From Hygrocybe punicea (taxonomy: Eukaryota > Basidiomycota > Agaricomycetes > Agaricales > Hygrophoraceae): a stretch of DNA of 64,000 nucleotides. Below the pieces are notes generated by a model. That model did no database searches and was not told the DNA's origin. It saw only the letters and a list, made by a program, of their open reading frames with translations. The stretch spans positions 806,001 to 870,000 of the forward strand of contig OY744464.1 in assembly GCA_963556145.1 (NCBI GenBank), in the 5' to 3' direction. This document shows, one piece after another, positions 9,225 through 52,326 of the stretch (its first letter is position 1; every line of letters begins with the position of its first letter). The position numbers and the translations under genes are program-made.

Positions 9225-11499
9225 TTAGGAGTAGATCAGCTCAACGCTAGAGATTATCATTGCGGCCATACGCCATCGTTGAACCAAATACTTGTGTGCA
9301 GATGAGAATAAAATGCTATTTTGCCGGGATTCACTTCTCAGTGACTCCCGTTTTACATCGCCTGACCATTTAAAGAAGTTACATCTGTACTGTGGGTCAA
9401 CTTCTTCTCGTAGGCGCACTGACTTGCCCTTGTCGTACCCGGGACCGACTGGACTGTAATATTTATCAACAGGACTTACATTCAGAAAGGAACTTCTGGC
9501 AAAGAGTCGCCAGACGCACCGAGAACACACAAAGAAGTTCTTTCCTTTGTTCGGTCCCGGCTTATTCACCGTGAACTCCTTCGCAGGCTCACCGTGAACT
9601 GTACACCTGGGTGGCTGGATCGGTGCCAAGAGCTGTGACCAAGCCGCTGTGTTCTGCGATGTCGATTGAACTGTTGGATAAAGTAAGGGATCGGTTTCCT
9701 GCGATGCGGATGGTTGGAGGGCTAAATAGTGGTCGTAGTCGAGTTGACTTGGAGCGCCCACATCAGAAGTGTCAGGCTGTGACGACTCTGTAATATCGAG
9801 GATGCCTCGTATGACGGTATTCTCGACAGTGGTCGGTTTCCGTGTCTTCTGAGCTACAGGTGGTTTCGTAAAGAAAGCCGAAAGTTTAGTCTGACCATTC
9901 TTTTGCTTTTTGTTCTTGCCGTGAGGAGGCACAACCAAGTCCGACTTTCGTTTGGCGACAGGTGGTGGAGATACGTCGGATCTGTTCGTTGAGAACGAAG
10001 CACCATCTTCCTGGGTGGACGAATCTAAAGTGGGTAGAGACGATTAGAAGGAACACTCGTTTAGGAGATAAATACAAGTTTCACAAGACTGTGAGCGGTC
10101 AAATGAATCGGCAGAAAGAGACGAGACGCCAGCTTCGTCCAACGACTGCAATGATGAGGAATCGGGTATTGGGGATATATTTGCCTGCTTCCCAAAGAAT
10201 GTCAACAGCAATGTCTGCTTTCCAGAAAACTCCTCCCAGTATTTTGCTGCGAGACGTGGAGGCTCTCTTCTGGTATCGCTAACCTTCATCGCTTCGCGTA
10301 ATGTCAGCTTGGCGCCTGAGGGAAGTATAGTTTCATCATGTAAATCAATATATATCGGACAGTGGTCAGAGCCTTTCAATGACGGCTGGATGTCACCGTG
10401 CTTGGGCCATGTTAGTACCCCACGGGTACCCAAGATGTAATCCACTCTTGAACCGTAGTTGGTTTCACGGGCAGAGATTTTAGTGTTCCAGCCTTTGTCA
10501 CAAATCAAGGTCGAACACCTTGGGCACTAAAGACAAGGCGAAACCACGCACAAGTGTACATCCCTTTCCTCGTTGGCCAGAAATAACGCACTAGGTCGAC
10601 CATGCACCCCTCAGGTGCAAGCCATTGACGGAACCAAGTGCGGGGGGGATGATCATAGAAATTGTGGGAACGACTCGGTAAATGTCCTTCGCCATGATCA
10701 AGTGGTGTGGCACATATATTGACGTCGCCTAGCACAATCACCTCACGTCCGTCCTCAATCAGCTTCCGTACCCGTTCCTGAAGCATCAAGTGGAAGTTCA
10801 TTTTGAACGGGAGGCGCTCATCTGAGCTCTCATTCGGGCAGTAGACATTGATAAGGACGAACAAGCCGAAATCCAAGACCAACGCACGTCCTTCACAGTC
10901 TAGGATCGTCAGGTTTGTAGGCGTATTTCCTTGCGCGTCCGCCATCAAGTTGATTTCATGAGCGGATGGATACGATGCGGATATTCTTTCTTCCATGGTT
11001 AACGGTGGTTTAGGTTGAAGTTGTCCTGACAGACCTTCCTCCGCTTTCAATGGAACAACATTGCGCGAATCGGTGAAAACAGCAACGCCGCTGTATCCTC
11101 CTTTGTTGACTGGGAAAGAAAAAAAGGAATCGTAGTGTCCCGGAAGGCCGACGGTATTGTCTAAAGCGGAGCGCGATGTCTTCATTTCTAAGATGTTTAT
11201 CATAGTCAATGCGTAGTCGTCAACGAACAGGTGTTTTTGTACCTTGAAAGCATGTAATGTCGGCTTCTAGGAGGTCCAGTATTCCTTCGCATGACTTCAG
11301 CGTGTTCCATCTGTATAGTAAGTAATAATAACACGAATGTTGGGATGGTTCAGGCCGAGCAGGTTACGAATATCTCTCACGGATGATACTGAGGGAGGGT
11401 GCGTATGCCATTCTGATTATAAATTTTTCTGATGAGTACTGAACAGTCCAGTTTAACCGGTTACTGGAAACGCACAATATTCCAGGAGAGTATCCGCAT
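9225..11499 (-). CDS. APN2: class II AP endonuclease APN2 (exonuclease III family)
   Basis: Seven exons join in frame to 636 residues: 11499-11476, 11412-11381, 11310-11243, 11187-10552, 10492-10076, 10024-9520, 9453-9225. The start MRILSWNI, split by an intron from NGIRTLPQYHP, is the family's N-terminus. Metal and catalytic motifs of the EEP nuclease fold are intact: CFQEMK, VYCPNE, LGDVNIC, RVDYILGT and GSDHCPI. A PCNA-interacting box, QTKLSAFF, lies near residues 420-430, and a C-terminal GRF zinc finger (CTVHGEP to VCSRPVGPG and RCNFFKW) follows. Such enzymes cut DNA at abasic sites and trim 3' blocks in base excision repair in the nucleus. The gene is divergent from BUD20, with 92 bp between the start codons. 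The last ~35 residues after the GRF finger look unstructured. Confidence 0.95.
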
Positions 11500-27000: not shown

Positions 27001-28342
27001 CCAAGACATTTTCTTTGGTTTGGCTACGTTTGCCTTTTCCGGCATGCGGGATTGCGCTCAGGCATTCAAACGGTATAGTCGTCCGTCTTTCTGGCCTGTT
27101 CCGACAAGTTTATTCTCCTTCATATGGAGCCTGCATATTCCATTGCAGAAGTTAACCCATCCGCCACTTTCATTGAATGGCTAAGCAATAGTAGCGAGTT
27201 CCGTGACTCTGGTACATGTAGTACGTCTCGTAGCTGGTGCTGTATGTCCCTTCCATCCACTGTGAAGTGTAAGGTGATGGTTCCACGACCAAGAGCTCGA
27301 GCGGCTACCTTTCCTAGTCCTTGAACGGTAGCTTTGTCCAGAGTTTTGTACGTGATAAATGTGTTTTGGGAATTGCTGATGTGACTTGTCGTTCCGGAAT
27401 CCAGTAACCAATCGCAGCCTGAAATATTGTCTGTATTCACTGCATATGCTATGTCCTGTAACATATTATTGACATTGTCCACAGCTTGATTCGATCGGTT
27501 CCGTTGGTTTCCACCCTTTCCGGTGCCCTTTCCTTTCCCTTTCGGCCCTTGCCCTTCCTTTCCGCCACCTTTAGACCAGCAGTCCTTCGCCATATGTCCC
27601 TTCTTGTGGCAGTTGAAGCATTCTGTTTTGGAATCGGCCGCTTTCTGCTTTCCGTTACCCTTTCCATCACGCTTTCCGGTGAACCTCCCATGCATAGTGA
27701 CATTGTTAGGATCTCCGCTGCACTCACGGCGCCTGCGGTCTTCCTCCAATAGGATCGCGACTAGTTCGTGTGATGTCAGTGACGTTCCGTCCTTCTTCGA
27801 GCCTAAATACACTGATGTATACAGGTCCCAGCTTTCCGGTAAAGAAGATACAAGTATCATCGCGAAATCTTCATCGGAAACGAGGCTTCCCATCAAGTGG
27901 AGTTCCTCCTGTAGTTTCCGGAGCTTCGATATGTGCTCGATTAGGTCGAATCCTTCTTCGGCAATCGACTGGTACAATGCGCGTCGCATCGCTAGTATTC
28001 CGAGCTTCCCCTGGATTCCTTTACCAAGGTTAGCTGCTTCCACATCTCACTCGCCATGTGTGCGCCAATGATATGTATCATTTCCGCGTCACCAATTGCG
28101 AGCTCGATCTGCGTCCTCATCTTGGCATCTCCACCGCGCCATTTCTTCATCGCCTTGGATTCCTCTGATGTTGGACAGGATGCGTCCACCGGGACAGGGG
28201 CCTTTGATTCCACATTGATGTACGTCTCTAACCCAAGATCCCGAAGTATGGCTAACATCCGTCTCTTCCACGGCATCCAATTGTTTCCCTTCAATAACTC
28301 GATCCAGTATGATCCCGATGTGTGCGTGACTTCGTCTGTCAT
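24074..28342 (-). pseudogene. copia gag-pol, broken by frameshifts and stops
   Basis: Gag starts at 28342 (MTDEVTHTSG) and shifts frame near 28020. A CCHC zinc knuckle, CFNCHKKGHMAKDC, lies near 27590-27630. The protease motif DWLLDSGTTSHIS is near 27375-27415. Integrase pieces include TDDVTR, FDNGKE and QHGTAERFNRT (26800-26430). Reverse transcriptase (25792-25115) has DIKGAYLNG, YGLRQAG and IWVDDLT. RNase H (24820-24074) has DADWGSNPHRKS and STAEAEYVA. At least six breaks separate the segments, so the copy cannot make a full polyprotein, although every domain is present. The low LTR divergence means the breaks are recent, or the element was mobilised in trans. Confidence 0.9.
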
Positions 28343-34721: not shown

Positions 34722-36523
<1,802 letters not shown>

Positions 36524-42650: not shown

Positions 42651-45600
42651 ATGTTGCGACTTGTTCATTTACTCGTTCTTGTCAGTCTGTTTCCGACACA
42701 ATTCGCTAAAGATGCAGTCGACTATGTCAACCCGTATGTTCTCTGCATGTTATTCTCCTCCTCAAAATTCCTTGAATTCATGCTGAAAGGCTCATCGGAA
42801 ATGGTGGGGACTCTCCGAACAACTCTGGTGGGATGATCCCATCAACCGCTCCACCCTTCGCCATGACTCGTTGGGTCGCTCAAACCCGTCAAAACCACGT
42901 TTCCATGACACCCTACAACTACACTGATGCCTCAATTCACGGATTCCAGGCAACTCACCAGCCAGCCATTTGGATGGGCGAGAGTGCGACAGTGGTTGTG
43001 GTTCCTGGAGCAGGCAAGCCGAGAGATATATTTGAACAGCGAGGAATGACTTTCAGTCATGACAAGGAGGTCATCTCTGCAAGTTATTACAGAGCAGAGT
43101 TGGAGGCTGTAGAAGGAAGTAGTATTCTCGCTGAGCAAACGGCTTGTACGACTTTGTCATCCTCTACCTCAGTAATTGTTCTTCTGACGCACCGTAGCGT
43201 CTCGTGTCGGGCATTTACGCTTTACGTTCACGGATACACGTTCGCCTTACGTTCTCGTTCAAGCAACTAGACCGTCGATCATCGGATCGTCTGACACCTC
43301 AAACGTTACGCTCCCATTCGGTTCCTTGTCCATCAATCCTGCCACCCGCGAAATTACAGGAAGCAATCCCGAGCGCCAAGATTTCATCATACAGCCAATC
43401 TCAACTCCTGCATCCAGTTTCAGCGGTTACTTCTGCGCACGATTTGACACTCCCTTCATGTCATGGGGCACTGCAAATAATGGAACCTTACACCCTGGAC
43501 AGCAGGAAGGCAACGGAGCGATACTTTCGGGATATGTTGCATTCGAACCGAACCAAAACTTAACCGTCAATGTGAGAATTGGAGTATCATTCATCTCGAT
43601 AGAGCAGGCGAGGAAAAATTTGGACGCTGAGATATCTGACGGGACAACTCTGGAGGAGACCGCAAGTAAGACCAGGGCGATGTGGGCAGAAAAGTTGAAT
43701 AGCATTCAGATCGAAGGTGCAACCGACGAAGTATTGGAAACATTTTATACTGCATTCTTCCATACCTTACAGGTGAGATCTGTCGTATTTCACCCTACGT
43801 ATTCGCAAGTGGCTTAGCCGTGCTGGTTCAGTATCCGAGTGAGCAGGATGAAGATGGGCATTACTATTCCGGATATGACCAAGCTATTCACCAGGGGACA
43901 TCCTATACGGGGTACTCCATTTGGGTAAGGTATGATCTTTGTGTTCAAGCTCACTTATTAATTCTTCCATCTTCCATTTCCAGGATACCTACCGGGCAGA
44001 ATGGGCATGGCTCATCCTTTTCGCGCCGGAAAGGGTGCCTGGGATGATTCGTAGCATGTTACAGGATTATGACGAGGTAGTCATCACAGAATATGTGATT
44101 TTTATCCTGTACTCAGCTACCATTGTATGTTGCAGGGAGGATGGCTTCCTATGTGGAAAAATATCATCGGTGAGCCTGTGGTGAAAATCAATCCTGCACT
44201 GTTTTCTTAATCTCGTAACTGTATGGTTTCAGAAACAAACATCATGGTGCGCCAAAATATCTTCTGTTCTTTCGCTATATTCTAACGGCAAAAGTATAGG
44301 TAGGAACTCACGCAGACTCCCTAATTGCAGAAGCTGTTGTGAAGGGTGTAAACGGGTTCGATCTCGAAAAGGCATATGAAGCGGTGCTCAAAGATGCCAC
44401 TGTGTCTCCAATGAATGACCAAACAACATCGTGCGTACCCTTGATTGATGCCCAGTGTTTTACTGACGTCAGAACAAGGTACTTTGATCGGGAGGAGGTT
44501 GTTCCGTTCAAGAATCGTTTCTCACCAAATACAAGCTTACTGTAACCACACAGAACGTGGACTATGAAGTACGTGCGGGCCTATCCTCAGAGTACGCAAC
44601 CAAGGGCTGGGTCGCGTCCGACGTTCACTCTGAAGCTGCATCTCGAACTTTGGATTATGCTTGTACGTTTGGCCCTCTTCCCTTTTTAGACTGTTGAAAC
44701 CACACTCCACATAGATGGTGACTATGTTGTTTCGGTTTTTGCTGCTGCCTTGAACAAAACAGCGGACGCCGAGTTTTTCGGATCTCGGGCCAAAACCAGT
44801 GCATTCACCATCTTCAACTCTGACACTGGCTTTATGGAGGCTAGGAATGCGGACGGGTCGTGGGCTGGACAGGACGCTGGATGGACAGAGGGAGATATGT
44901 GGTGTTATTCGTTCGATGTTAAACAAGACGTTCCTGGCTTGATAGAAAAGCGGGGTGGGACCTTGAATTTCGTTCAATCGCTTGAATCGCATTTTGAACA
45001 AGGGCACAACGATCATACGAACGAGGTCAGAGAAATGACCTTCTGGAACCGCGTTTGTGCTAACCCGAGTGTGTACGCAGCCTTCCCATCACATTTCGTA
45101 TCTATATTCTATGGCGAGGGCAGCATCAAAAACCCAAGAACGCGTCCGAGCGATTGCCAAGTCAAACTACAACAACAGCGTCAACGGCCTGTCCGGTGTT
45201 TGTACCCCCCCCTCATGCTATACTAAAACGCACTGTGATTCACGCGTACTTTATTTATTTCCCTTGGCAGAACGAGGACTGTGGCCAAATGAGCGCATGG
45301 TATCTTTTCACGGCTCTTGGTTTTTACCCCGTGAATCCTGTTTCAGGAGAATATGTCGTTGGCTCGTGAGTCCTGCCCATATTATATATTATATCATATA
45401 TCGTGTGCCGTGCCCTTCCGATTGACGGTGTACTCCGTGACAGCCCATTCTACGACAAAGTCACGATCAACCTCCCCGGGGTTGCCAAACCCCTAGTAAT
45501 TTCGTCTCCTGGAGCACCCACCAAGATCTACGTCAAGTCACTGACTGTTAACGGGCAAGCGATGGCTGACCCCATCATCACCCACGATCAGATAGCTAGA

Positions 45601-45779
45601 GGTGGTGAGATTGTATTTGAGATGAGCGAGACGCCTCAGACTTGGGCAAGCCATACCTTTGTGGTGAGCGTCATTCATTTTTGTCTATTTTTTTTTGTGG
45701 TCTTTGGCCGACCTATTTCCGTCATTAGGGAGGTGAACCCGTGCATCAAAAACAGGCAGTTCTACACGAAGAGCTGTAG
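42651..45779 (+). CDS. glycoside hydrolase family 92 alpha-1,2-mannosidase, secreted
   Basis: Fifteen exons join in frame to 766 residues; introns 49-80 nt. Exons: 42651-42733, 42790-43145, 43198-43772, 43832-43924, 43984-44076, 44136-44169, 44233-44246, 44300-44430, 44479-44497, 44554-44662, 44715-45025, 45081-45197, 45271-45365, 45444-45663, 45729-45779. A signal peptide (MLRLVHLLVLVSLFPTQFA) precedes DYVNPLIGNGGDSPNN, the GH92 N-terminus. Family blocks include GFQATHQPAIWMG, SGYDQAIHQGTSYTGYSIWDTYR, WLPMWKNI, MVGTHADSL, GNEDCGQMSAWY and FYPVNPVSGEYVVGSPFYDK. The ENEDCGQMSAWY-type motif holds the conserved acid region of this Ca-dependent family. It probably trims mannose from secreted glycans. 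The smallest exons are 14 and 19 nt but keep the frame and motifs. Confidence 0.93.
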
Positions 45780-46018
45780 ATGAATTTAGTTGTGAATGTT
45801 CCCGGTGGTGCTTGAGCAGATGATGTAAGCCCTTGGATCCCAAAGGTTTACCGATGACATAAGCATGTTCTCACGCTTGCACAAATGGGCCGGTTACCGA
45901 CTTCAACCCTGTATATTGAGGGTTTCACTGTAAATGCAAATGCTAGACTGGTAACCTGCCCCTTTGTGAGAGGATATCAAGTTGGTGCAAGGCCAAATCC
46001 TCGACTCTGGGACTGGCT
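45780..46018. other. GH92 3' flank
   Basis: No gene. It ends at the left TIR of the DUF6589/helicase element. Confidence 0.5.
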
Positions 46019-46050
46019 GATCTGAGTTTAAATTTGGTGGACGCGCGAAA
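46019..46050 (+). repeat. left TIR of the DUF6589/helicase element
   Basis: Begins GATCTGAGTTTAAATTTGG. Inverted partner at 51320-51351. Confidence 0.75.
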
Positions 46051-46151
46051 TCTCTCCCAAAAGAGTGTTGTTTGGTTCTGCCGTACCATGCCGATTATCT
46101 TTTTGAGTGGTGATTGAAAATAATTAATGATCGAGGACTCAGAGCTGCGAT

Positions 46152-48973
46152 ATGTCGAAGTGCAAGAAACATCCTCAAAAGCTGCCACTATCCTCTGACT
46201 GTGGTGCAAGTACTGTCCAAAGCCTCAGTGATCCTTTTCAATACGTTTTCCCTGTCAATTCCGCTTCAGAAACTAACTTGTCGAGCAATATATCACCTCT
46301 TAGTTCAACACCTTTCGAGTCCCCTCTATTCTCAACTCCCGTCGAATTCAGCTTCATTCACACTTCTGGATCGAGCGATGCGATTAAGACTGGTCGGCCG
46401 GGAAAATCGCCAGATGAGCGTATTCAGGAGGCTCTCAAGTTACTTCGAAAATACCGGATGGCACCAATTGATTTGCTGATGCATGTCCTTGGCGAAACAT
46501 TCCAAGATGGTTTCCAATACAAAACTAACCTATTTGGCAAAGGCGGTAAACTTGGAGTGCTACTCGATCTAGTTAATTGTGATCACGACGGTCGGGAACG
46601 CTTGAAAGAGTGGATAAGAGGCACCGGTTTGGATCTGATTGAGGACATTGTTGGCGAAGAAATGGAGATGGTCAAGGCTGCATTTACAATCAATCTCGGA
46701 GAGATTACCCCGCAATATATTGATGCCTGGACTCTCGATGGTGCAGTTGGATCTGTCGTGAAAACCAAGGCACCGTTCCTCACCGAAATCCTCACTCAGG
46801 CAAGCCAGTGCCCAATAGCGATGGCAAAGAATAAAGTCAAGACAGCCAATAATGTACGTACATCTCATTCAAGCATTGCACATTTTATCTGATTTTTCTG
46901 TAGCTCCCTCACGTTATCATTGCTCAACTCGCCAATTTTTGTTCAAATCATAGTCTTGCATTCCAAGCCATCTTTTCGTTGTTCCAGTGGACGACCGGTT
47001 GCCAGCGCCAAACCATTGATGCCCTTGCGTGATGCTGCTTATCAATCTCATTCGACTCCCTTCTTAAATGTGTCAGGAATCTTGGGATGAATTGCATGGA
47101 GCTTGCGAAGGAGGTAGCGAAAAAACCCCACGCCCTTTGTTGGGATAATATCAACATGAAAACATCAATCTTTGTCGAACAACGAATGGATGTTCCAGCC
47201 AAGGTTCAATCAGGAACATTCGCGGTTATCTATCCAATCAAGACTACTGAGCCAAATACGATGCGACTTACACCAATCATTGAACGTGCAAAGATTGCTC
47301 CGGGCCTCGACTTCAATGCTCACATTCGCCCCACATGCGACCAAATGCAATCTTCACTTCTTCAACTACAGATCATTGTGATCTGTGTCCTCACCACATA
47401 TCTGAAACCATTTGAGACTTACGCCGACCACTCCATGTTGCAGCACAAACCCTGTCGTTTGTTACCGCTTGCCAAGACGAAGACGTACCCTTTGCGGGTT
47501 ATGACATGTAATGAAGCAATGGTACTTGGTACAATACAAGTCTGGGAGAATGCGTACAATGAACAGCTCAAGCGAACACATGAAGAGATGGACAACATCG
47601 CTATACCAAGCTTTAATGACCAGCTAACAAATTCCCGAATTCGTGGTGCCAAAGTGATGCGGAAATGTGACATCAACCCTTTCCTTCGACTCGATAATCT
47701 ACAACTCGGGTATGGTGTATTTCACAAATGCCTTAATCTCGTATGGGTGATTCTCAAGATACATCACGGCAACATCGACCAAATTGGTTCCCTCAACTAT
47801 TTTTTTGCCCTCCTTGAGAAGACACGTCTCAGTGGCAATAAACCTGACTACCACGCGCTGCTATCTGCTCTCATGCAAATATTACATGGCCTTATTTTGC
47901 AAGCTTGGCGACAGGAATGTGGTGTGGCCTCCTTGGAGGTCTTCGCCAACTCAAAACCAACTCCGGAACGACTTTTAAAAATTGCTCTGCAAATTATACG
48001 CAAATATGGTTCTGCGAAAGAAGAATCATCTGGAAAGGTAGTTGAGGACCTGAGTGAGGATGAAGACCAAGGTTGCGATGCTGGGGAAACAACAATGCGG
48101 TCGAGTCTAACAACTGCCACTACTCCAGATGATCGTGCGCATCGCAACATTCAACTATTATTTCGGGACCTCCTTTACGTTGCTGAACTTATTCGAGCCG
48201 TGTCAGACGGAGACTGGGGTCGAATTGAAGATATTTTAGGACAACTCACGATGATGTTTTGTGGTGCCAGGTCCAACAACTACAGCACAGAATTGCTTCA
48301 TTTTCTGCACAACCTCAAGCACGTTTGGGGCGAAGATTTTGCGTAAGTTTATCATAGCTCACACATGCAAGAAACTGATATAACTCAATAGAAATGTTAT
48401 GCGGGATAACATGCTTGTCAATCCATCAGGACATCAAGGCCACTGGATGGGGACTGATATGAACATTGAGCATCATATCAGATATCTCAAAGTATGCTTT
48501 TTTTATGTCGTTCATTCATGTTGAAATATTCATCATTTCAATAGTTTTTATTTGCTTCCAAAGGCCTTTATGCGAGCTGGGATCGATTAGCTGATATATC
48601 CGCTGGAATCGACTACCTGCAAAAGATCAAGAAACAGATTGGCATTGGTTTGCGAGGATATTGAAGTGAGACGCACAAGAATCCCGACACAACTCCTCTC
48701 GTATGGAAGGTGGCCAACGACCTTTGGGATACTGAACTCCTGTTCTTCAAGACTGATCGCCACGACAACTCAGATGAAGTCCCTGCCGTGCTAGATATAT
48801 TGAAAGAAGGCGAGAAAAAACTCAAATCGTCTTCCCTTCAGACCTTCAACAGCAAGATTCAAGTTCTTATTCAAGGATCAAATGGAGACGGCGGCATTTC
48901 TATCTTGGAGGAACATGACGACTTGGCACAACCGGATTTTGAAGAGGTGGAACATGACAGTGAGGTTGATTGA
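46152..48973 (+). pseudogene. DUF6589 protein, nearly intact, two in-frame TGA codons
   Basis: Exons 46152-46853, 46904-48342, 48392-48491 and 48545-48973 join in frame to 889 codons. Blocks typical of DUF6589 proteins are RIQEALKLLRKYRMAPIDLL, CWDNINMKTSIFVEQ, FAVIYPIKTTEPN, INPFLRLDNLQLGYGVFHKC, LNYFFALLEKTRLSG, DYHALLSALMQILHGLIL, LHFLHNLKHVW, NVMRDNMLVNPSGHQGHWM and DMNIEHHIRYLK. Function is unknown. Conserved acidic residues make a nuclease role conceivable but unproven. TGA at 47030-47032 (after IDALA) and 48662-48664 (in LRGY-stop-SETH) interrupt it; both could be CGA before deamination, though the second could also be a changed TGG. Otherwise no frameshift is seen, so loss of function is recent, or the stops are read through or edited. 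Confidence 0.8.
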
Positions 48974-49177
48974 TACAATGTGTAATAATAATACAAATGA
49001 TTGGAATCAAATGAATACGAACTATTTCTTTCTCTTCCTCAGGACATGGCCTCCTGAAGTGTAGACATTGGTTTGTTCTGTTAGTGGGGGATGACCAGGA
49101 AGGCGAATTGTGAGCTGTGGAAGTGTTATGGGTTCTGGAACAGGTATGTGTGGGCTGGGCGAACGAGAGAGCGTCTT

Positions 49178-51211
49178 TCATTTTCTAGAGGGCTTGAGAT
49201 TATCGTAGGTATTGATGACGTTGTAAACTGAAGTGGAATATGTCAGTGACCATTCAGACGTCTCACCAAGTAATTGAGTGATGTCTGAGGGAGTAGAAAT
49301 CGACGATGGCAGGGCAGCAGCAAGCAATTTGAGTTTTGTGTCGTCCATGATCCAAGTTGCTGGTGTGATTGCACCAAGAGAATCTTGCTTGTGTGTATCC
49401 TGTCGCCAAACAGTCAACAGTGCCTGTAAAGGAGCATGGTCTTTGACAGGGCGTCTCTTGACTCGAGGTTTCCTTGGTTTTTTGGCTGGAGGTTCTGTGC
49501 CGGTGAAGAACTTGCCAGGAAAAAAGACTTGGAGGTTGAAATCCGGGTCATGACAGTCACAGCAGGAAGTTGTTGTGAATTGCAGCGCTAGAGTAAATAA
49601 AATCAATTTGATCTGATAGCTGAATATCAAATAAAGACCTTTGGATGTCGTGTCATTGAGATATCGTGCCCAGATTGCACGAATACATTCAGAAGCTTGA
49701 ATTGTCTTGATTGACTGTATGCTTGTGCGTTCAAGTTTTGTTTTGAATTTCTTGGGAGTAACACAAAATGGCAGATCGGGGTCGTCTTCGAGCTCTTGGG
49801 AAGGAACTTCACTGACATCAACTTCTTTTACCCAAGCTTCATACATGATCAAGAAAATCGATTTGTTGCTTGGGTTTCGTCCAGCTCAACCACCTCGTTG
49901 TATAGTTTTTGTCTCGTCCGACGCAACTCCATATTGAATGACGATGTCAGCCCGATTAAAGTCTATCCCAGATTCCATTCCTGCGCAAGTGTGTAAGACA
50001 CGGCAAGAACCATTTTGAAAAGCCTCGTAAGTCCGTTCAAGGTATTGTGGTGACATGTAACTGTGATAGTGCATCACGATGCCTGTTCCACGCATCGATT
50101 GGGGAAGCAGATTGTCGTGACGTTTGGCGGCATCGGCGCATTGCTTGACGCTGTCGTGAAAGATGATCGTCAATGGGATAGCTTCTGGTAATGTATAAGA
50201 TGAGGCTGGTGGTAAGACGAAGTCAAGGTTGCAAAAGTCCGAAAGTGAGCTGATAACTGCTTTTGTCGCATACATGATATTCGGGCGATTGCTTGTTCGG
50301 CAGATATGAAAGTGATTTGGGTTGAGAGACATTTTCTTTTTGACAATTTTCAGCATATGAGGTGGTATTGTTGCTGAAAAACCCATAACTGTCATTGATT
50401 TCGGGAAGAGAAGGTGAAAAGCGTCGAATTTTCCGTAAGATGGACGAAACGCCGGTTCACCATGTTTCGGTATCCCTGCAGTGTAGATATGCTGAATTTC
50501 GTCCATGTGAATTCTCTTGATGCAGTTGACAAATTTTCGATCTGGTCTACGGAGGAGGCAGGCAAATCTTGTCATGTGTCCATCATATATTCCAAGTTGT
50601 TCCATCGTAGTAATGATGTTCGTATACTCGTGATTTGCAATTTTCTGATAGACAGTAGTCAAGTTTGTATATGAGAAAATATGTTAGTGACATACCGTCC
50701 ACAATTCTGTATCATCCGGGGTATCTTCATTAATAACAACCGACGGAATCCCAAAGGAAGCAAAGGCCCGAAGTTGTGAGTGTTGTAGCCATTTCAAAGG
50801 AACAATTAAGACCGAGATGTCATCTGGACGTAGAAGAGAAAGCATAATCATGATCAAAGTTTTTCCAGAACCAGTTGCTGCAGTGACAAGGCCATCTCGA
50901 CCAGACAGAGACTCAATAACTGCCAGTAGCTGAAATTCCCGGGGGATAATGTTGCCAAGCGAAAGAAAATAAACAAGAAGCAAGGCACGAAGCACCTCAG
51001 TTTGTTGGGTTTCTTGAAGGGATCCAACAAATTGTTCAGAAGGTAATCGATCTTGAGGAATGACTTTGCGAGCGACTTCAGACAATGCAGTAAAATCCAT
51101 GGCAGAAATTGAAGACCGAGCGGATTGTGCCAGAACTTGAAGAATAAGAGGTTGACCAGCATTGTCCGCGCCAGAAAAGTCCACTAATGTTGCCAGGAAG
51201 TCGACAGACAT
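49178..51211 (-). pseudogene. RecQ-like DEAD/DEAH-type helicase, one TGA in motif VI
   Basis: Exons 51211-50696, 50644-49639 and 49587-49178 join in frame to 643 codons. Helicase motifs in order: I AATGSGKTL, Ia VLIVPLKWL, II MDEIQHIYT (Walker B DEIQ), III GFSATIPP, then the second RecA-like domain with IIFHDSVKQC, HYHSYMSPQYLERTYEAF, VLHTCAGMESGIDF and motif VI QYGVASDETKTIQRGG-stop-AGR. The stop, TGA at 49888-49886, replaces the expected Arg of the GGRAGR turn, consistent with CGA to TGA. The C-terminal part has SCCDCHD and a basic stretch (KKPRKPRVKRR). It resembles RecQ-like helicase genes that mushrooms carry in many copies. Convergent with the DUF6589 gene. Confidence 0.82.
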
Positions 51212-51319
51212 TCCATCGACGGAAGCTACGGAGCAGATAAGATATGCTGAGTTTAAATGTGTTACGGCAGGCTACGGCAAAGCTACAAACAACTTTGAAA
51301 GCTTCCTTTTCTGGATAGT

Positions 51320-51351
51320 TTTCGCGTGTCCACCCAATTTAAACTCAGATC
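51320..51351 (-). repeat. right TIR of the DUF6589/helicase element
   Basis: Inverted copy of 46019-46050 with two mismatches, one a CpG transition. Confidence 0.75.
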
Positions 51352-52326
51352 GACAGGTCCTGCTGTTGCAGAGCTTGCTCATCAGCAAAGGCAGGATCAG
51401 TTACAGGTCTATGCAAATGCAACCACCTGGGAGTGGGACACAAACAAGAATTGCTTTGGATGGGCAAAGCTTTCTGTGGCTTAAAAATGGAAGGAATGGC
51501 TTCCCCTAAGGAACAATTACAATAAATTCTTCAACACTCATCCTTCAGAAGCTTTGACTCTCAAATGCCACATGTATCCATTATACAATACTTAAGAGGA
51601 AGAAATTTGCTAGCTAGGCATGTTTTTCTTAAGTGTATGCTCCAGCGGCAGCCATTACATCCTGCCACCCTGTCCCATTTTTCTTTTGTAAGTATTCACA
51701 GAACTTCTGAACAGAAAAGTTGGGCTCATACTTCTCATGCAGGAAGTGGAGGGCAAGCTTGGTGTCCCAGTGGTGTTGGCTTGACAGCTCCTGGACCAGC
51801 TGTATCACCTTGCAGCGGGCATGAGGTGTCTTGAGGTTGGGAATAGTGTTGCTGCAGCTACCATCAGGAAGTCAAGGGTGATCTGATATGAGCTTATAAA
51901 GCCTGCTCCGAATAATTACTATCATTAATTTTCATTATGACATGTCTCAGGGAAACCCAGATATTGTAAGTCTCTGTTGATGAAATTACATCATATCATA
52001 CAACTTGATGCATGTGGGTCTTTGATGAGTGAAGTGTCCCAGAATTATCCTTTCATCCCTACAAGATAATCTATTATGAGTCCCTATAAGGGAATCATTT
52101 CTATATGGTGGATTTTGCAACTCAGGGTCACACTCTAATTTGCCAAGCCATGGGAACAATTGTTGCAAACTGTGGGAACAATTTTGAAGCCCTGAGAATA
52201 AATTTGAAACCGTGTGACTACTGACTTTGTAAATGTGAGAATTTGTCGTCCCAATCAGCAAGAACAATAAGGTCACCAGATCACAGGTGCCAAGTTGGGA
52301 ATGGGTAGTCCAATGCTAAGCTGAAT
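51352..52326. other. CpG-poor decayed DNA between two elements
   Basis: It holds the small exon relic listed next; the rest has no recognised content. Confidence 0.4.
51630..51835 (-). pseudogene. unknown exon relic
   Basis: The minus strand reads KVIQLVQELSSQHHWDTKLAL, then FLHEKYEPNFSVQKFCEYL and GTGWQDVMAAAGAYT before a stop. The ~65-codon uninterrupted frame with amphipathic helices looks coding. Family unknown; probably a piece of an old element protein. Confidence 0.35.

Follow-up and report, generated by a model that had tools for sequence, protein, structure and literature searches.

A 5468-bp element of Hygrocybe punicea with a DUF6589 gene, a RecQ-like helicase gene and 9-bp target-site duplications: a probable AcademH-type DNA transposon

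The DNA analyzed here, referred to as the window, is a 64,000-nt stretch of Hygrocybe punicea contig OY744464.1, and all plain coordinates are those of the window, whereas C-numbered loci are places elsewhere in the same genome. Located within it is a mobile element with terminal inverted repeats (TIRs) and flanking target-site duplications (TSDs) that contains two convergent genes, one for a DUF6589 protein, the strand of which defines the plus orientation, and one for a RecQ-like helicase. The principal parts are as follows.

45944..51411, plus strand: the whole element, 5468 bp (terminal boxes, 9-bp TSD, paralogous empty sites)
45935..45943, plus strand: left TSD, TGCAAATGC (single copy at the empty sites)
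51412..51420, plus strand: right TSD, TGCAAATGC (single copy at the empty sites)
45944..45956, plus strand: left terminal box, TAGACTGGTAACC, the start of the true TIR (other copies end in similar boxes)
51399..51411, minus strand: right terminal box, reverse complement TAGACCTGTAACT (similar boxes at the ends of other copies)
46152..48973, plus strand: probable transposase gene with a DUF6589 domain, made up of roughly four exons, with start and splice positions set by eye (open reading frames (ORFs), PF20231, homologues, models)
49178..51211, minus strand: gene of a RecQ-like superfamily 2 helicase, with exon boundaries inferred (DEAD and Helicase_C; recQ_fam the best NCBIfam match)

A preliminary description of the locus had reported a 32-bp inverted repeat, 30 of 32 positions identical, bracketing two convergent genes. 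The repeat is confirmed by direct reading and by an inverted-repeat search of the window, which gave arms of 53 nt at 46010-46062 and 51308-51360 that are 81% complementary. The gene pair is likewise as described: Pfam scans of the window ORFs identified DUF6589 on the plus strand (PF20231, E 2.1e-70) and, on the minus strand, DEAD and Helicase_C, both above their cut-offs. The 32-bp repeats had, however, been taken for the ends of the element, and here the description was wrong, for the true ends lie 75 bp (left) and 60 bp (right) further out, at 45944 and 51411. The features needed to follow this point are listed below.

46019..46050, plus strand: inner (subterminal) inverted repeat, left, formerly the left TIR (30/32 identical to the right arm)
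51320..51351, minus strand: inner (subterminal) inverted repeat, right, formerly the right TIR (30/32 identical to the left arm)
45846..45943, plus strand: older host repeat, left part (flank positions 403-500 recur, wholly or partly, at 13 other places)
51421..51843, plus strand: older host repeat, right part (flank positions 1-423 recur; the empty sites show the joined site)

The element is inserted precisely, with exact ends and a 9-bp target duplication, into an older host repeat whose other copies serve as paralogous empty sites. At 8 of the 13 places the left and right flanks are exactly contiguous by coordinates (C39:1952012/1952013, C33:5270583/5270582, C6:6017151/6017150, C2:804047/804048, C2:6853416/6853415, C2:5598038/5598037, C2:190051/190052 and C7:6851537/6851538); at the remaining five there is an insertion or deletion at the junction, or the match ends before reaching it. 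Five loci, which represent three of the eight places (those on C39, C33 and C6), were read base by base, and each contains one TGCAAATGC and no element. It is this single TGCAAATGC without the element that proves the ends at 45944 and 51411. The inner repeats were rejected as ends: the 75 bp and the 60 bp that lie outside them are both missing from the empty sites. The absence of a clear target duplication, also claimed previously, was likewise an error: a perfect 9-bp TGCAAATGC lies directly outside each true end. The host repeat itself measures ∼0.5 kb or more and occurs at least ten times in the genome.

Comparison of copies within the genome leads to the same boundaries. Similarity between copies extends outward beyond the inner repeat, and TAGACTGGTAACC/TAGACCTGTAACT is the outermost box that they have in common; the terminal boxes of other copies fit the pattern TAG[AGC]C..GT[AG]A. 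Inside those ends lies a TCTGAGTTTGAATT-like box related to the inner repeat. The left end of the window copy is matched by a second copy at 96% identity over 82 bp. A relative at C41:4211657 (L063) is 95-96% identical over the left end, and no second (right) end was found for it in the 16 kb examined.

Protein searches of the H. punicea genome gave at least 78 DUF6589 and at least 61 helicase matches, both lower bounds, which group into 55 loci for each gene. Among the matches listed, a helicase locus lies no more than 6 kb away from 31 of the 55 DUF6589 loci, and the other 24 are unpaired; all 31 neighbor pairs are convergent. Fifteen pairs of the close lineage were examined, of which seven have both ends and a perfect 9-bp TSD, four have one end and four have none. 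The seven both-ended copies range in length from 5293 to 6019 bp. To these can be added a 1636-bp internally deleted derivative, likely a non-autonomous form, at C2:6598601-6600236 (L056), which is flanked by the perfect 9-bp TSD CCTGCATGC, and a copy at C3:1117831-1131435 (L042, L013) that is split between its helicase and transposase genes by ∼9 kb of extra DNA, probably a nested insertion. The end boxes of the C3 copy were located independently of any duplication and were then seen to be flanked by the 9-bp CCTCATTGC.

Three distant pairs, with main matches only 24-28% identical, were also considered. That at C6:2721457-2728125 has the ends TAGTCTCGAACCC and TAGTCTCGTACCC and the 9-bp TSD CTGATTTTG; an 8-bp duplication, TCACATGA, was considered for this copy and discarded, as the inverted repeat ran further out. 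No ends were found for the other two (L065 and L067). The TSD is thus exactly 9 bp in all ten copies with both ends located (the seven, the derivative, the C3 copy and the distant copy). Note that the TSD aided the pairing of ends for eight of these (the seven and the derivative) and for the distant copy, and copies lacking a TSD would therefore fall among those left without paired ends. For a copy on C7, the joined flanks match across the junction at all 40 places that were scored, out of 235 first-look candidates; for the copy at C35:4882919, no empty site was found in the H. punicea genome, its flanks matching only themselves. The proposal of a TIR element built of DUF6589 and a RecQ-like helicase accordingly stands, having been met with repeated recovery of the unit, 9-bp TSDs, and precise element-free sites at paralogous loci.

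The window copy is itself broken, as indicated by three in-frame stops.

47030..47032, plus strand: in-frame stop, transposase gene (reading-frame check)
48662..48664, plus strand: second in-frame stop, transposase gene (reading-frame check)
49886..49888, minus strand: in-frame stop, helicase gene (ORF list and reading-frame check)

The last of these falls in what we take to be helicase motif VI. Judged from its reading frames, the window copy should no longer yield either protein whole. At several other loci of the genome the matched part, over which alone the check was made, is without a stop.

On the basis of modeled structures, the DUF6589 protein is very likely a transposase of the RNase H fold with an Asp-Asp-Glu (DDE) active site. 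Its candidate catalytic residues, numbered as in the modeled protein P0045, are listed below, where A1 denotes an alignment of DUF6589 homologues.

47144..47146, plus strand: first candidate catalytic Asp, D157 (D in 46/46 non-gap rows of A1; first strand of the P0045 model)
47618..47620, plus strand: second candidate catalytic Asp, D317, in an NDQLTN motif (D in 47/47 non-gap rows of A1)
48468..48470, plus strand: candidate catalytic Glu, E592, within an NIEH motif and less certain than the two Asp (E in 10/14 non-gap rows)

In the P0045 model, D317 lies directly past the strand delineated by residues 312-316, and E592 lies within the helix formed by residues 591-604, after the strand at 584-586. 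This placing of the three residues on strands and helix follows the order known for DDE enzymes. The best structural alignments of the DUF6589 models are to the P element and Hermes transposases. A Foldseek search with the P0045 model gave no significant match, and sequence searches of the PDB with the DUF6589 protein gave no match to solved structures. When DUF6589 proteins and pieces of the gene were scanned with Pfam, no family other than DUF6589 passed its cut-off, and a MULE transposase domain was not reported in those scans.

The assignment of the glutamate is weaker than that of the two aspartates. Of the 14 non-gap rows of A1 at E592, 10 have E, three have Q and one has S; the other 36 rows are gapped. 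The motif N[ILV]EH[LI] occurs in 10 of 120 homologues among those listed, mostly short pieces, and the predicted local distance difference test score (pLDDT) is below 50 for residues 591-628 of the model, which include E592. The NIEH motif was found in 14 copies of the genome, but as NIEH was itself the pattern searched for, this number shows that the motif recurs and does not tell how invariant it is. A further six acidic residues (E282, D393, D507, D522, E527 and E548) are invariant across all 50 rows of A1, and E548 is therefore a rival for the third catalytic residue. The suggestion that DUF6589 might be the recombinase has thus gained a modeled fold and candidate DDE residues and stops short of proof; of the invariant Asp and Glu residues sought, the two aspartates are invariant in the non-gap rows and the glutamate is not.

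With respect to the second gene, recQ_fam was the best NCBIfam match for four of five helicase pieces (both window pieces, P0139 and P0141), always below the curated cut-off, and the Hef nuclease model was the best match for the fifth, P0121. "RecQ-like" is, from these profile matches, the careful name. The six ORF pieces of the element contain DUF6589, DEAD and Helicase_C alone at E ≤ 0.001 in Pfam, and no XPG nuclease was found among them at that threshold.

To what family, then, does the element belong? The XPG nuclease marks the AcademX lineage of the Academ DNA transposons, and the founding paper of the AcademH lineage is reportedly that of Kojima in 2020. The preliminary description held that no described class combines these features, which the literature does not support: in the portions of the papers available, a RecQ helicase is reported in Academ (PMC3627910), AcademH is a helicase-bearing DNA transposon with TSDs of 9 or 10 bp (PMC10045372) and occurs in Basidiomycota (PMC10799480), and non-autonomous Academ elements were noticed in the Marasmius oreades genome (PMC8290104). 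The window element resembles AcademH in having a helicase as its second gene, a 9-bp TSD in ten of ten copies, within the described 9 or 10 bp, TIRs with TAG-starting boxes at both ends (known here from these copies alone), no XPG nuclease among the six ORF pieces scanned, and mushroom relatives in keeping with the described basidiomycete occurrence. It may differ in its covarying subterminal palindromes, which were not found in the available passages on AcademH. We consider it a broken copy of a TIR DNA transposon of AcademH type, matched by published descriptions only, with a probability of roughly 0.84, short of proof.

A less likely alternative is a separate and unnamed DDE superfamily, in which DUF6589 is not the Academ transposase and the RecQ-like helicase and 9-bp TSDs were gained independently. 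A search of 5.39 million papers gave no mention of the term DUF6589, and the alignment of the models to the P element and Hermes can be read in the same way; the coincidence of three traits given in the available AcademH descriptions, namely a RecQ-type helicase, a 9-bp TSD and basidiomycete hosts, makes such an origin unlikely. The P element and hAT transposons (the latter including Hermes) have 8-bp TSDs and, to our knowledge, no helicase, whereas the window element has a 9-bp TSD and carries one. MuDR shares the 9-bp TSD; the window element differs from MuDR/MULE transposons in its helicase and in the lack of a MULE domain in the Pfam scans.

The target duplication of Kolobok elements is TTAA. 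KolobokH, a fungal TIR lineage, has a RecQ helicase (PMC9587614) and so shares host kingdom and helicase with the window element. The available part of its description, however, places the helicase downstream of the transposase domain, whereas here it is convergent on the opposite strand, and with 9-bp TSDs in ten of ten copies and TTAA not seen, membership in KolobokH is highly improbable. The helicase might also recall a Helitron-like rolling-circle element, or the two genes might have been paired by chance between unrelated repeats. We know of no Helitron with a TIR or a target duplication. The TIRs are at odds with both ideas, the TSDs and empty sites refute them, and the convergence of all 31 listed neighbor pairs argues further against chance; neither has any appreciable likelihood.

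For the AcademH-type element, the following mechanism is proposed. At each end, the DUF6589 DDE transposase would bind the terminal box and the inner box and cut at the outer TAG/CTA border (boxes TAGAC..GTAAC). The ends would then be joined to target strands 9 bp apart, and gap repair would produce the 9-bp duplication. The helicase may open or resolve the palindromic subterminal stretch, or aid repair, during excision and integration. To move at all, the window copy would need to be supplied in trans.

The subterminal palindromes of the window copy are as follows.

45955..46016, plus strand: left subterminal palindrome, weak in the window copy (DNA fold z -0.33; ranked 30 of 55 for self-pairing, not above chance)
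51358..51396, minus strand: right subterminal palindrome with a 6-bp outer stem and a short inner stem (z -1.18; self-pairing rank 1 of 55)

When the 75-nt ends of eight TSD-flanked copies were folded as DNA and compared with shuffled sequences, the mean z was -1.95 (16 ends), with 8 of 16 below -1.5; for 48 internal control windows, the mean z was +0.42, with one below -1.5. Arms from within one end pair at a mean of -12.2 kcal/mol (28 ends), versus -7.6 kcal/mol for 646 cross pairs between dissimilar ends. Self-pairing ranks first in 14 of the 28 ends and fifth or better in 21, and a permutation test with one representative for each of eight clusters gave pairing at least as strong as that observed in 3 of 20,000 permutations. 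The ends of the distant element, different in sequence, fold at 95 nt with z values of -3.85 and -2.13, and at 75 nt with values of +0.23 and -1.6.

These results raise the possibility that the ends are recognized by shape as well as by sequence, through a fixed box of ∼13 bp, a palindrome conserved in its pairing and not in its sequence, and a fixed inner box, with the helicase acting there. The left and right palindromes of an element would differ from each other, and palindromes would recur in a lineage with a 28%-identical transposase, and the RecQ-like helicase would act on an extruded hairpin or on single-stranded ends. We advance this tentatively and regard it as doubtful. Speaking against it, self-pairing ranks 17th or lower in five of the 28 ends, the low-ranking ends including the DUF-side end of the window copy, C41:4211657 and C7:2435823, and the end counts are not independent because many ends are close relatives. 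A literature search combining subterminal hairpins of transposons with helicase and Academ gave nothing on point in titles and the beginnings of abstracts.

Elsewhere in the window, pieces of a glycosyl hydrolase family 92 gene (44690-45783, Pfam) stop shortly before the host repeat of the element, and an 83% match to part of the flank, 45444-45690, lies at C33:6512656. Also present are a Copia-type gag/pol fragment on the minus strand (27120-28046; Retrotran_gag_2, Pol_BBD), an ORF with a TIP49 P-loop domain (35262-36101) and an ORF with a GRF zinc finger (9225-10043).

The analysis points to a function for DUF6589, which is filed as unknown in Pfam: it is very likely a DDE transposase, and many "hypothetical proteins" of mushrooms would therefore be transposon genes. 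The family has many copies, and with its ends, TSDs and empty sites known exactly it provides a clean system in which to study the reason for a RecQ-like helicase in a DNA transposon. One answer that can be tested lies in the terminal palindromes, which merit a closer look; if recognition by shape were true, this would be a DDE transposon in which one step depends on structure and is assisted by the helicase.
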